This document shows positions 951-47,702 of a stretch of 64,000 bases of DNA, one piece after another. This DNA comes from Gymnodinialimonas sp. 57CJ19. GTDB lineage: Bacteria > Pseudomonadota > Alphaproteobacteria > Rhodobacterales > Rhodobacteraceae. The number at the start of each line of letters is the position of its first letter. Position 1 is the first letter of the stretch. The notes under the pieces were generated by a model, which saw nothing but the letters and a program-made list of their open reading frames with translations, had not been told where the DNA came from and ran no database searches. Location of the stretch: positions 2,888,001 to 2,952,000 of the forward strand of contig NZ_CP151587.1 in NCBI RefSeq assembly GCF_038396845.1, in the 5' to 3' direction. Position numbers and translations under genes: made by a program.

Positions 951-996
951 CCCAGTCTTTTGCAAAAGACTGGGAAGATCCTTGCAAGGATCTTCC
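951..996. repeat. Pair of adjacent TTGCAA-centred palindromes
   Basis: Two perfect palindromes sit back to back just after the IscU-like stop codon. The first (951-974) has arms CCCAGTCTTTTG/CAAAAGACTGGG. The second (973-996) has arms GGAAGATCCTTG/CAAGGATCTTCC. Neither is followed by a T-run, so they are not classical intrinsic terminators. The same design recurs at 33067-33131 and 62978-63022. The remaining stretch to 1295 holds only a weak long-range inverted repeat (CGCCGCCAT at about 1004 against ATGGCGGCG at about 1047) and no gene I can support. Confidence 0.8.
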
Positions 997-1295
997 ACAC
1001 CGCGCCGCCATTTCCCCAAAAAAAACGCCGCGCATCCCGGACAAGGATGGCGGCGTAGTAATGCGTATCCGTGACGTCCCGAGGCATGGGACTAAGGGCG
1101 AGGCAAATCGTGTTTGGGCCGGGACAAGTGGCGCAAACGAAACCCGTGGATCGCAGGCAGAAAACGGGCGCAGTCTGGAAGGTTTCAGGTCTCTCTCAAG
1201 TCCTGCTGCGCGAAAAATCTAGGGGTGGGACAACTCCTTGCGGGGCGGCGGGCGGGTCAGATACCGACAGGGGCAAAAATACAGGGGGCGAAAAT

Positions 1296-1418
1296 TCAGA
1301 CCAGACCGGGCAGATGCAGCATCCCAACCGTCATCAAGGCGAGTGCCACAACGCCTGCCAGATCATACATCAGCGTATCGCGCGAACGGGCGAGAATTTG
1401 AGCGGCTTGTGCAATCAT
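1296..1418 (-). CDS. 40-residue single-span membrane protein behind a LexA-type box
   Basis: A very short ORF with a good ribosome site (AGGAGA, 8 nt before ATG at 1418). The product has a basic, amphipathic N-terminus (AQILARSRD, residues 7-14) and one hydrophobic segment (about residues 20-38, LAGVVALALMTVGML), which suggests a single inner-membrane span. I do not recognise the family. Its upstream region holds a canonical alphaproteobacterial SOS box next to a TACAAT -10 element, so it is probably DNA-damage inducible. Caulobacter SidA, also tiny, membrane-bound and SOS-induced, blocks cell division. The resemblance here is in architecture and regulation only, not in recognised sequence. 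It lies downstream of recG on the same strand. Confidence 0.6.
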   Translation of the reverse strand: MIAQAAQILARSRDTLMYDLAGVVALALMTVGMLHLPGLV

Positions 1419-1502
1419 CGGGGCGTCTCCTGTATTACCGAACGTCTGGGTAGGTAACGTCTTTGTTGCATCTTTGTTCCCACGTTCCGCTAAAATTGTA
1501 AA

Positions 1503-1517
1503 GAACTTTTTGAGAAC
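1503..1517 (-). promoter_or_regulatory. LexA (SOS) box of the GTTC-N7-GTTC type
   Basis: On the minus strand the sequence is GTTCTCAAAAAGTTC, an exact match to the direct-repeat LexA site known in alphaproteobacteria. Two nt further toward the gene is TACAAT (1500-1495), a 5/6 match to a -10 hexamer, so LexA bound here would cover the promoter. A further GTTC half-site follows at N6 spacing (1524-1527). The box is 85 nt upstream of the small gene that starts at 1418 and lies in the gap after recG. Confidence 0.72.
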
Positions 1518-1564
1518 ATTTGAGAACAAAGCGTGTTCCGTTCTCGTTTTAGACCTCCCCAGCC

Positions 1565-5996
<4,432 letters not shown>

Positions 5997-42042: not shown

Positions 42043-42057
42043 GAACAAATTAAGAAC
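42043..42057 (-). promoter_or_regulatory. LexA (SOS) box upstream of uvrA
   Basis: On the minus strand GTTCTTAATTTGTTC is an exact GTTC-N7-GTTC. It overlaps the stop codon of the upstream MFS gene (TAA at 42050-42052) and lies 68 nt before the uvrA start. Confidence 0.75.
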
Positions 42058-43328: not shown

Positions 43329-46300
43329 ATGCGCGCGTTTTTCCTCGCCCTGTTTACACTCCTCATGCTTCCCCTTGCAGCCTTGGCGCAATCAGCGGAT
43401 CGGCCCAACACGATTTTGGTGTTGGACGGTTCTGGCTCCATGTGGGGGCAGATTGATGGGGTCAATAAAATCGTTATCGCGCGGGAAGTTATCGCTGAAA
43501 TGCTGGCCGACATGGCCGACGATGTCTCTCTTGGTCTGACGGTTTATGGCCATCGCCAACGGGGCAGCTGCACGGATATTGAGACGATCGTTTCCCCCGC
43601 CCCCGGCACTCAGGATGAAATCCTCGCCGCTGTGAACGCGATCAACCCGCGCGGGCGCACACCGATGACCGACGCCGTTATCGCCGCCGCGCAATCGCTG
43701 CGCTCCACCGAAGAGGCCGCGACAGTGATCCTTGTCTCCGACGGGATCGAGAACTGTAACCCTGATCCCTGCGCCATCGCCGCCGAACTGGAAGCCACGG
43801 GCGTGGATTTCACCGCCCATGTGATCGGTTTCGATGTCGCCTCCGAGCCCGAGGCGCGGGCGCAGATGCAGTGCATTGCCGACAACACCGGCGGGCAGTT
43901 TCTGACCGCCGACAACGCGACAGAGCTAGGCGAAGCCCTTGAAACCGTTGTCGCAATCGCCCCCACTCCCATGCGGATCGAGGCGCAGGTTCTGCCCGAA
44001 GGCGCCCTGCCCACCCGCCCCGTCAGCTGGACACTTCTGGGCACCGATGGCGATACCGTCAGCACCGGCATCCAAGGCCCCGCCATCGACGTGAGCCTGT
44101 TCCCCGGCACCTACATCGCCCAAGCGACCCGGACGGAACCCAACGGCCCGCAGACTTATCAAACCTCCTTCACCGTGATCGACGGCCAGACAGACCTCGT
44201 CATCGTCGCCATGCCTCCGATCATCGACACCTCGCAAATCACCTTCACCGCCCGCGTGCGGCCCGACATGTCGGTGCCCGCCTCGCAACTGGCGTGGACG
44301 CTGTTTGACAGCGCTGACACGGCGCTTCTTGGCCCCGTCGTGGCCCCCGGCGGCAACGTGGCGCTTTTGCCCGGCGACTACCGCCTGGAGGTGGAGCGCG
44401 CCAACGCCGGCACCCGCCACGAGGCCCGCTTCACGGTCGAGCCCAACACCCCGCAAGAGGTCATCGTTCCCCTGCCCGCCCTCACCGTGGAAATCGACTT
44501 TGTCGCTCGCATCGGCAGCGTCGGCGGCGTGACCATCACCGACCCGGTCATCTGGGATGTGGAGCCGCTGCAAACCAACCCCGTCACCTCCAACCCTGCC
44601 ACCTTCCAGATGTCGCGCGGCGCCTACCGCGTCACCGCCTACTGGACCGCTCAGGAGATCGAGCAAAGCGTTGACTTCGTGGTCGTGGATCAACCGCGTC
44701 AGATCGTCGTGGTCTTCCCCGAGCCCGTGCCCCAGGCCAGCCTCACCGCCGTGGGTCAGGCCCGCGCGGGCGATACCATCGAAGTGGCGTGGACCGGCCC
44801 CGGGGCCGAGGGCGACTGGATCGGCTTCTACCCGACCGCGAACACCTCCAACCACAGCTATGACGCCCTCACCCCCCGCCTTTCCCCGGCCGAGGGCAAC
44901 CCCCAGCGCATGCGCGTCCCGCCGCTGCCCGGCACCTACGAGTTGCGCTATATCCTGGCCGAGAATGGCCGCCAGGTTCTGGCCCGCCTGCCCTTCGAAG
45001 TTCTGCCCCAACCCGCCTCGGTCGAGGCCGCCTCCGGCATCGCGGGCGACACCGGCACCGTGACCTGGACCGGCCCCAATTTCTCCGATGACTGGATCGG
45101 CTACTACCGCGTCGATGATACCGCCTCCCACAGCTATGATGCGCTGACCCGGGTGCAGCTGAATGGCGAAACCTCCCCCACGGCGCTGAATTACCCCGCC
45201 GAAGCAGGCACTTATGAACTGCGCTACGTGATGGCGCTTGGCCGAACCGTGCTGGCGCGCCAGATCGTCGAAGTGACAGAGGTGCAGGCAACCCTGACCA
45301 CCTCTGCCACCGGCACCGCAGGCGCTCAGGCCGAGGTTGGCTGGACCGGGCCCGCCTATGACGGCGACTGGATCGGCTTCATCGATCCTGCTGACACCTC
45401 CAACCACTCCTACGATTTCGCCACCCGCGTGGCAGTGGCCGAGGGCAACCCCGTCCGCCTCAACTACCCCGCCGCTCCCGGCACCTACGAATTGCGCTAT
45501 ATCCAGCGTCAGGGCCGTCAGGTGCTGGCCCGGATGACCGTCGAAGTGACAGAGGTGCAGGCAACCCTCACCACCGCCGCCACAGGCATCGCGGGCGCGC
45601 AGGCCGAGGTCGGCTGGACCGGTCCCGCCTATGACGGCGACTGGATCGGCTTCATCGATCCCGCTGACACCTCCAACCACTCCTACGACTTCGCTACCCG
45701 CGTGGCAGTGGCGGAGGGCAACCCCGTCCGCCTCAACTACCCCGCTGCTCCCGGCACGTACGAGTTGCGCTATATCCAGCGTCAGGGCCGTCAGGTGCTA
45801 GCTCGGATGACCGTCGAAGTGACAGAGGTGCAGGCAACCCTGACCACCGCCGCTACAGGCGAGACCGGGCAATTCGCGGAAGTCGGCTGGACGGGCCCCG
45901 CCTATGACCGCGACTGGATCGGCTTTATCGACCCCGCTGACACCTCGAACCACAGTTACGATTTCGCGACCCGTGCGGCGGTGGCCGAGGGCAATCCCCT
46001 GCGTCTGCAATATCCCGCAACGCCCGGCACGTATGAGCTGCGATACATCCAGTACCAGGGCCGGCAGGTGCTGGCGCGGATGACGGTCGAGGTCTCAGAG
46101 GCTGACGCCGCGCTGACCCTGCCCGACACCGCCGTGGCCGGATCAATGATCGAGGTTGCATGGGTCGGGCCGGACGCGCCGCGCGACTATATCGGTATTG
46201 GCCCCGATGGCGCTTCCGGTGGCGCACAGTGGCAGAACTACACCCGCACGGCAGACGGCAATCCGCTGCAATTGCAGGTGCCGCCCACGCCGGGCACATA

Positions 46301-47702
46301 CCGGGTGCAGTACTTCCTGCATCAGGGCAACACGAGCCTTTTGTCTGCGCTGCTTACCGTCACCCCGGCTGAAGCCAGCGTGACCCTGCCGGCCAGCGCG
46401 GTGGCGGGCTCGACTGTCGAAGTGGGTTGGACCGGGCCGAATTATCATCGCGATTACATCGGCATCGGCCCCGCTGGCGCTTCCGGCGGCGCGCAGTGGC
46501 AGAACTACAGCCGCACCGCCGACGGCAATCCGGTGCAGCTTTTGGTCCCGTCCGAGCCGGGTACCTATGAAGTTTCGTACTTCATGAACCAGGGCAATAC
46601 CGAGCTTGCCACCGCCACGCTGGAGGTCACGTCGGTCGGGGCCTCCATCACCGCACCGGCAACAGCCGTGGCAGGCTCGACGATCGAGCTTGCTTGGACC
46701 GGGCCGGATTATCACCGCGATTACATCGGCATCGGCCCCGTGGACGCGACCGGCGGCGAACGCTGGCAGAACTACACGCGCACCGAAGAAGGCCCGATCC
46801 TGCGTCTGCAAACGCCCCCTGAGGCGGGCGAATACGTGATCCGCTATTTCCTCAACCAAGACCGCTCGGTTCTGGCCGAAGCACGGATCACCCTGACCGA
46901 GGCTGCATCTTCCATTACCGCACCGACGACGGCGGTTGCGGGGTCAGTCATCGAGGTTGCATGGACCGGGCCGGATTATCACCGCGATTTCATCGGCATC
47001 GGCCCCGTGGGCGCGACCGGCGGCGAACGCTGGCAAAACTACACGCGCACCGAAGAAGGCTCTCCGCTCATGCTGCTGACACCGCCCGAGGCGGGCACCT
47101 ATGTCATCCGCTACTTCGTGGATCAGGATCGAGTGGTGCAGGCCGAGGCGGAAATCACCCTCACCGCGCCCGCCGCGACACTCACGGCTCCGACAACGGC
47201 GCCCGTGGGTTCCGTGGTCGAGCTTGGCTGGACCGGGCCGGATTATCATCGTGACTTCATCGCCATCGGGGCCGTTGGGGCCACGGGCGGTGCGCAATGG
47301 CAGAACTACACCCGTACCAGTGAAGGCTCTCCCCTGACATTGCTGATGCCGACAGAGCCCGGCGAATACCTGATCCGCTACTTCATTGATCAGGACCGCG
47401 TAGCGATTGCCGAAGTTCCAATGACCCTCACCGATGTCACGGCAACCCTCGCGGCCCCCACCGTCGCTCCTGCCGGAGGTACGGTAGAGGTTCAATGGAC
47501 CGGGCCTGACTATCACCGTGACTTCATCGGTTTGGGTCTTGTCGGGGCCACCGGCGGCGGCCAGTGGCAAAGCTATGCTCGCACAAGCGAGGGCAGCACG
47601 GTCACCCTAAACGTGCCAGAGACGCCGGGTTCATATGTGCTGCGCTACTTCATGGACCAGGATCGCCGCGCGATTGCAGAGTTGCCGATCACGGTGCAGT
47701 AG
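43329..47702 (+). CDS. Giant secreted VWA protein with 11 tandem ~90-residue repeats
   Basis: A 1457-residue protein with a signal peptide (residues 1-21, ending AALAQS). A von Willebrand A domain (about 27-210) has an intact MIDAS start: Asp33, Ser35 and Ser37 in LDGSGSMWG, with later ligands near RGRTPMTDAV and VSDGIENC. A linker of about 260 residues with three Ig-like segments follows. Then come 11 tandem repeats from residue 469, each with a W-x-GP, a D-[WYF]-IG core and a C-terminal [TS]Y-x-[LIV]-R/Q-Y strand. Repeats 1-5 share DWIGFIDPADTSNHSYDFAT; repeats 6-11 share HRDYIGIGPVGATGGERWQN. There is no C-terminal anchor. It may be an adhesin or matrix protein. Confidence 0.85.
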   Translation: MRAFFLALFTLLMLPLAALAQSADRPNTILVLDGSGSMWGQIDGVNKIVIAREVIAEMLADMADDVSLGLTVYGHRQRGSCTDIETIVSPAPGTQDEILAAVNAINPRGRTPMTDAVIAAAQSLRSTEEAATVILVSDGIENCNPDPCAIAAELEATGVDFTAHVIGFDVASEPEARAQMQCIADNTGGQFLTADNATELGEALETVVAIAPTPMRIEAQVLPEGALPTRPVSWTLLGTDGDTVSTGIQGPAIDVSLFPGTYIAQATRTEPNGPQTYQTSFTVIDGQTDLVIVAMPPIIDTSQITFTARVRPDMSVPASQLAWTLFDSADTALLGPVVAPGGNVALLPGDYRLEVERANAGTRHEARFTVEPNTPQEVIVPLPALTVEIDFVARIGSVGGVTITDPVIWDVEPLQTNPVTSNPATFQMSRGAYRVTAYWTAQEIEQSVDFVVVDQPRQIVVVFPEPVPQASLTAVGQARAGDTIEVAWTGPGAEGDWIGFYPTANTSNHSYDALTPRLSPAEGNPQRMRVPPLPGTYELRYILAENGRQVLARLPFEVLPQPASVEAASGIAGDTGTVTWTGPNFSDDWIGYYRVDDTASHSYDALTRVQLNGETSPTALNYPAEAGTYELRYVMALGRTVLARQIVEVTEVQATLTTSATGTAGAQAEVGWTGPAYDGDWIGFIDPADTSNHSYDFATRVAVAEGNPVRLNYPAAPGTYELRYIQRQGRQVLARMTVEVTEVQATLTTAATGIAGAQAEVGWTGPAYDGDWIGFIDPADTSNHSYDFATRVAVAEGNPVRLNYPAAPGTYELRYIQRQGRQVLARMTVEVTEVQATLTTAATGETGQFAEVGWTGPAYDRDWIGFIDPADTSNHSYDFATRAAVAEGNPLRLQYPATPGTYELRYIQYQGRQVLARMTVEVSEADAALTLPDTAVAGSMIEVAWVGPDAPRDYIGIGPDGASGGAQWQNYTRTADGNPLQLQVPPTPGTYRVQYFLHQGNTSLLSALLTVTPAEASVTLPASAVAGSTVEVGWTGPNYHRDYIGIGPAGASGGAQWQNYSRTADGNPVQLLVPSEPGTYEVSYFMNQGNTELATATLEVTSVGASITAPATAVAGSTIELAWTGPDYHRDYIGIGPVDATGGERWQNYTRTEEGPILRLQTPPEAGEYVIRYFLNQDRSVLAEARITLTEAASSITAPTTAVAGSVIEVAWTGPDYHRDFIGIGPVGATGGERWQNYTRTEEGSPLMLLTPPEAGTYVIRYFVDQDRVVQAEAEITLTAPAATLTAPTTAPVGSVVELGWTGPDYHRDFIAIGAVGATGGAQWQNYTRTSEGSPLTLLMPTEPGEYLIRYFIDQDRVAIAEVPMTLTDVTATLAAPTVAPAGGTVEVQWTGPDYHRDFIGLGLVGATGGGQWQSYARTSEGSTVTLNVPETPGSYVLRYFMDQDRRAIAELPITVQ
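44733..47702 (+). repeat. Protein-coding tandem repeats, 11 copies
   Basis: Repeats of 264-279 nt lie inside the VWA gene. Copies 3 and 4 (45282-45554 and 45555-45827) differ by two residues in 91 and are nearly identical in DNA. Copy 5 (45828-46100) is close behind. Copies 6-11 form a second subfamily of 88-89 residues. Homogenised DNA makes this region prone to length change and assembly collapse. Confidence 0.88.

Follow-up and report, generated by a model that had tools for sequence, protein, structure and literature searches.

A conserved, predicted LexA-controlled 40-residue membrane protein with a structured 3′ RNA in Rhodobacteraceae, a candidate SOS division brake

The genome of Gymnodinialimonas sp. 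57CJ19 encodes, downstream of recG, a 40-residue protein behind a LexA-type box, which raises the question of whether so short an open reading frame (ORF) is a genuine damage-responsive gene and, if so, what its protein and transcript do. The window, meaning the whole stretch of DNA analysed (64,000 nucleotides of contig NZ_CP151587.1), had been the subject of a preliminary description that claimed an exact GTTC-N7-GTTC box, a strong ribosome site, and a short single-span membrane protein. The box is present as GTTCTCAAAAAGTTC at 1517-1503 (minus), GGAGA lies 7 bases before the ATG, and the ORF behind the predicted LexA switch proves real and conserved together with the box. A second, inverted box, a conserved 3′ RNA, and the near-universality of the gene in Rhodobacteraceae were absent from that description. 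We consider it very likely that the gene is protein-coding and under LexA control. In our preferred reading, to which we assign a probability of about 40%, the gene product is a membrane effector induced in the SOS response, with a SidA-like brake on division as its most plausible role, and the transcript also carries a structured 3′ RNA. The features of the locus, in order of transcription, and one internal control are as follows.

1565..3667, minus strand: recG, the same-strand upstream neighbour; context, outside the unit
1524..1527, minus strand: additional GTTC half-site, 6 nt ahead of the main box, read from the sequence
1503..1517, minus strand: main LexA box, GTTC-N7-GTTC, exact and conserved in the loci fetched by protein search
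1497..1502, minus strand: probable −35 element TTTACA, including most of TACAAT, assigned from position and conservation
1474..1479, minus strand: probable −10 region GAACAA with TGn before it, assigned from its spacing to TTTACA
1465..1479, minus strand: putative second LexA box, inverted, GAACAAAGATGCAAC (GAAC-N7-CAAC)
1426..1430, minus strand: ribosome site GGAGA, 7 bases ahead of the ATG
1296..1418, minus strand: ORF, stop codon included, for a predicted 40-aa single-span membrane protein
1018..1163, minus strand: conserved structured 3′ RNA element with unpaired UGUCCC/CUGCCU motifs
1018..1056, minus strand: terminator hairpin and T-run closing the 3′ RNA element
42043..42057, minus strand: uvrA LexA box, 82 bp ahead of the uvrA ATG; internal control

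The sequence TTTACAAT directly follows the main box and holds TACAAT at 1500-1495 (minus). A leader containing the GGAGA separates the second box from the ORF start, and the ORF (1418-1296) translates as MIAQAAQILARSRDTLMYDLAGVVALALMTVGMLHLPGLV.

The bare box alone is weak evidence for the site. Five copies occur in the window against 1.76 expected, a number reached in 2 of 100 shuffles; three lie inside long open frames, and the other two are those ahead of the 40-aa ORF and of uvrA. Genome-wide, GTTC-N7-GTTC is not enriched (95 occurrences vs 172 for the reversed pattern), and the bare box was therefore set aside as evidence in favour of a composite promoter pattern. Known SOS genes of the same genome served as a further reference. 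The single lexA gene is preceded by two overlapping GTTC-N7-GTTC boxes, which lie 88 and 99 bp from its likely start (G000:C1:2460122-2460147, GTTCAGGGTATGTTCTATACATGTTC), and a box lies 76-109 bp upstream of recA depending on the start codon chosen (85 bp for the likeliest start). Exact boxes of the same form are thus shared by lexA, recA, and uvrA, and the feature that marks members of the alphaproteobacterial LexA regulon, an exact promoter box conserved with the gene, is found at the 40-aa ORF as well.

Conservation was first assessed with the peptide alone. At an E cutoff of 1 it matched 28 genomes out of 61, and 25 loci (L001-L025) were genuine on reading, encoding 39-40 aa; all 25 carry an exact GTTC-N7-GTTC 72-107 bp upstream, even at 35-45% protein identity. 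Weak protein matches at L026-L030, and a further one in a row that lists no locus, were judged spurious, being long unrelated ORFs that lack the box. A profile (A1) built from 21 members was then run on a family sample of 394 Rhodobacteraceae genomes, about one per genus, and matched 347 of them at E up to 0.01, a count that includes weaker rows taken by score alone; most rows contain one match per genome. Together with the 26 best-scoring of these, the 25 genuine loci make up 51 protein-fetched loci from 49 genomes, and the main box is exact upstream of the ORF in all 51. The promoter pattern GTTC-N7-GTTC-TTTAC-N14..20-GAACAA occurs in 260/394 genomes, once in each, while its reversed control scores 0 in every row, and all 30 loci fetched through this pattern carry the ORF (22 by script filter, eight by eye). 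Loss of the ORF or box in close relatives had been named beforehand as grounds for rejecting the gene; both are kept. A coincidence of a chance box with a chance ORF draws on the commonness of the bare box in the genome, and it is contradicted by all of the conservation data. Since box and ORF are conserved together across Rhodobacteraceae, we dismiss this explanation as having a negligible probability.

Genomes negative for the profile were examined through the neighbouring gene. A recG search matched 46 of these 47 genomes, six of them only weakly and to another helicase and two over only part of recG, and 38 recG loci were read along with one promoter site elsewhere. Diverged copies, recognised by eye from layout and hydrophobicity, are present in 27 of the 47. 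Among them, 21 have an exact GTTC-N7-GTTC, four have only an exact inverted GAAC-N7-GAAC (L146, L161, L352, and L354), and two have neither (L143 and L350). The core motif [DE]-x-x-G is found in 17 of the diverged copies and is missing from 10, and is therefore not absolute. The gene is thus present in at least 374 of the 394 genomes. In nine of the 47 the unit was not found beside recG, and the remaining 11 are accounted for by contig ends or the lack of a usable recG. In one genome (G092) the site at recG is empty (L356) and the promoter and ORF are located on another contig stretch with no recG end before them (L357), which indicates that the box travels with the ORF and not with recG.

A joint loss of the unit and lexA was considered and set aside, as the counts are not decisive: lexA is matched in seven (one weakly) of the nine genomes without the unit beside recG and in 15 of 17 tested genomes with it, leaving 2/9 (G203 and G231) vs 2/17 (G069 and G337) without a match. 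G203 and G231 (L140 and L142) have a recG near that of the window (72% and 68%) and match neither the unit nor the LexA DNA-binding domain; in these two genomes the SOS switch may possibly have been lost.

Profile searches of 289 Alphaproteobacteria genomes gave four matches, all in Rhodobacteraceae and none outside that family, and searches of viral contigs gave 0. Scanning named genomes with the promoter pattern gave at least 117 matches; among the 80 matches listed, this unit accounts for 78, from records that bear the names Ruegeria, Roseovarius, Sulfitobacter, Paracoccus, Planktomarina, Rhodobacter, and relatives, or in three cases only Alphaproteobacteria or Pseudomonadota. The other two (L224 and L247) are chance matches in other phyla. 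One of the 78 is truncated inside the ORF (L200). A short form in Paracoccus was missed by the filter and accepted by eye (L181), and another Paracoccus locus encodes a shortened peptide of 34 aa (L239).

These named loci also define the promoter. The gap from TTTACN to GAACAA is 17 nt in 73 of the 78, and on account of this spacing TTTACA is read as the probable −35 element and GAACAA as the probable −10 region. This pair replaces TACAAT, which the preliminary description had proposed as the −10; the −10 region is overlapped by the second, inverted box, so TACAAT more probably belongs to the −35. That inverted box, as GAAC-N7-[CGT]AAC, is seen in 76/78 named loci, where the search pattern itself demands GAACAA, and several diverged loci have it in the exact form GAAC-N7-GAAC. 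An extra GTTC lies 6 nt upstream of the main box in 62/78. LexA control of the promoter is strongly predicted, and we infer that LexA binds both boxes. A palindrome of LexA-type half-sites, GAACAAAACGCGTTTTGTTC, occurs just ahead of the box within the genus (e.g., L009, L011, and L013, with one mismatch in L009); it might represent an additional operator or mark where the recG transcript ends.

The ORF is under purifying selection: of the 78 pairs formed by 13 genus members, 77 have a pN lower than pS, and the median dN/dS is 0.15. Agreement with GGAGG of at least 4/5 is found at the ribosome site in 57 of 67 loci. In an alignment of 145 distinct proteins anchored at [DE]-x-x-G (a motif that partly guided the choice of loci, so that its G is conserved by construction), the most constant positions are D (99%), L at +7 (97%), L at +15 (99%), and P at +18 (97%), followed by R at −8 (86%) and T at −4 (84%). 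Neither the span, in any of the 145, nor the last residues carry a charge, and the mean charge of the N-terminal part is +1.3; this charge pattern predicts insertion with the N-terminus inside and the C-terminus outside, presumably in the inner membrane. None of the 21 profile members matches a Pfam, NCBIfam, or PHROG model. Among 18 matches in the protein database, four are named by their source, each as 'hypothetical protein'.

Boxes, hydropathy, and charge together predict a protein that is LexA-controlled, very short, and possessed of one membrane span, which is the description of the SidA family. In Caulobacter crescentus, SidA is, according to the accessible part of the source, a 29-aa LexA-controlled inner-membrane protein that acts on FtsW (PMC4211646), and a lexA deletion strain filaments in a sidA-dependent way, as the available text of a second study has it (PMC12700426). 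The two proteins are likened by description, not by sequence. The present protein is longer than SidA, and its gene follows recG, bears a pair of boxes in inverted orientation, and is trailed by a structured 3′ RNA. YneA of Bacillus subtilis, which acts with FtsW, and SosA of Staphylococcus aureus are likewise described, in the portions of the literature available, as SOS-induced division inhibitors; here too the likeness, SOS induction (predicted for the present protein), is one of description, and the hosts belong to other phyla.

Conserved residues and an uncharged span suggest contact with a specific membrane partner, and the division machinery is the best guess for that partner because small SOS-induced membrane proteins of other lineages act there. 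On this analogy, that the 40-aa protein is a division brake is a tentative assignment, to which we give a little less than an even chance. Sequence names no partner and no family model matches the protein, which leaves room for an SOS-induced membrane protein with another task, such as adjusting the envelope, modulating transport or respiration, or regulating a membrane protease. This is a remainder category against which nothing specific speaks, and we think it improbable.

The transcript probably continues past the ORF into a conserved element. A terminator was found by regular expression in 72 of 73 loci and by eye in the 73rd. RNAalifold on 13 genus sequences gives 33 pairs, nine of which have changed on both sides; 97.4% of the alignment cells pair, and the covariation score is 0.231 vs 0.127 in shuffles (0/500). 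Further pair types are no more numerous than in shuffles (182/500), and the closing helix P1 shows no double change within the genus. Of 200 shuffles, 198 fold less well than the window's own copy (z −2.73). A covariance model places the element 3′ of the ORF in 63/63 further loci, 13 of these matches spanning at most 100 nt, mostly the terminator; in the Gymnodinialimonas genome itself there is one strong match and two weak ones (E 0.009 and 0.015). In a 68-row model-fitted alignment, which leans to the model and in which four rows stray, double changes are seen in 30 of 33 pairs. Under Rfam gathering scores the window yields only tRNAs, and the best weak match within 900-1700 is BcKCsr2, at 16.6 bits vs 40.

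Two motifs recur in the element. Across 67 distinct 3′ regions, TGTCCC occurs 91 times vs 7.4 in shuffles and CTGCCT 106 times vs 7.9, with no enrichment of their reverse complements; copies of the motifs average 2.9 per element, with at least two in 62/67. Their unpaired probabilities are 0.76 and 0.78, compared with 0.39 for the remaining 6-mers that are not in the terminator and 0.49 for 6-mers matched in composition. This look is shared by RNAs whose C-rich loops mediate pairing, among them RsaE and LhrC, folded small RNAs with several unpaired C-rich motifs. The present RNA differs from those two in its place behind an SOS ORF, in its UGUCCC/CUGCCU motifs, and in having no Rfam match above the gathering score. 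It is probably a regulatory or stability element.

The RNA might even be the main conserved product, a damage-induced regulator acting on mRNAs by pairing, or on a protein by binding, at its repeated UGUCCC/CUGCCU loops, with the peptide secondary or stabilising. Covariation, motif excess, and motif exposure would fit such an RNA; the purifying selection on the ORF itself argues against it, as do the target search, which yielded no target, and Rfam, where no match passed a gathering score, and we rate it as quite unlikely. In that search, GGGACAAG was found shortly before an ATG at 162 sites in five genomes vs 77 for the reversed sequence. Nine recurrent candidates were examined, eight of them with the site in a frame open for at least 198 codons or with an ATG that opens fewer than 70 codons, and no target is claimed. 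A combined scheme, in which a dual-function SOS RNA belongs to the core equipment of the family, its single LexA-controlled transcript encoding a dedicated 40-aa division-checkpoint membrane protein and ending in an RNA that acts in trans to reprogram translation during DNA damage through its UGUCCC/CUGCCU loops, seems doubtful to us. Behind the terminator, window 973-996 (minus) contains a perfect inverted repeat, GGAAGATCCTTGCAAGGATCTTCC, and in some relatives (L002, L008, and L010) the downstream DNA holds GATCCTTGCAAGGATC repeats of a similar kind.

A structured 3′ part on the transcript of a small hydrophobic single-span peptide is also what a membrane-depolarising type I toxin would offer, a TisB- or DinQ-like protein that makes damaged cells dormant and whose translation is checked by RNA. 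SOS-controlled single-span E. coli peptides of similar size are such toxins, as far as the accessible parts of the sources describe them: DinQ, of 27 aa, has two LexA operators (PMC3567139), a feature shared with the present locus, and TisB, of 29 aa, bears a charged strip along its span (PMC8309996). As type I toxins, both have antisense RNA partners. A charged span of the TisB kind, however, is seen in 0/145 proteins here, and the gene is near-universal in Rhodobacteraceae, mostly with a single profile match per genome. The RNA features expected of such a toxin, a hidden ribosome site and an antisense or trans RNA antitoxin, were also looked for. Hok-like masking of the ribosome site by 3′ fold-back was rejected, being found in only 9/67 loci. 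The ribosome site has an average pairing of 0.73 over 67 loci, and a hairpin between it and the ORF was likewise discarded, pairing being above codon shuffles in 41/67 (p 0.20). A scan of both strands of 950-1650, covering one promoter type, found no promoter-like site. Given a conserved, uncharged span where TisB has a charge strip, contact with a protein fits better than a TisB-like pore, and we regard the toxin explanation as unlikely.

For the preferred reading, a division brake with an attached RNA, we propose the following course of events. LexA would sit on the two boxes flanking and overlapping the promoter and keep it silent until RecA filaments trigger LexA cleavage, and the derepressed promoter would then give a transcript of about 450 nt. 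The 40-aa protein would be translated and inserted in the inner membrane, its short charged helix inside, Asp at the membrane edge, and the uncharged span ending in Leu-Pro. There it may bind a specific partner in the membrane, the late division machinery (FtsW/FtsI/FtsN) being the most plausible one, and hold division until repair is done, in the manner of Caulobacter SidA. The end of the transcript would form the conserved folded RNA with its several unpaired C-rich motifs.

SOS-induced tiny membrane proteins are already known as a kind, and we know of no SOS division brake in Rhodobacteraceae. A literature search over titles and the beginnings of abstracts, with most subscription papers outside its scope, named none for the family and returned no description of this locus, so that the protein family with its fixed 3′ RNA is undescribed as far as the literature searched can say. 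A LexA study in D. shibae lists, in its accessible part, lexA, pde2, flagella, dprA, recA, GTA, and pilus genes, and recG is absent from its main text. Wide presence of the gene, an elaborate LexA operator, and the lack of a family model make it a direct candidate for testing in a tractable species. It would be unusual for an SOS mRNA to carry a conserved folded RNA at its 3′ end, and the RNA attached here combines a covarying structure and a strong repeated motif with the lack of an Rfam match. Elsewhere in the window, at 43329-47702 (plus), a 1457-aa ORF has an N-terminus that on reading resembles a von Willebrand A domain; behind it, a repeat around WTGPDYHRDFIGIG occurs in many copies.
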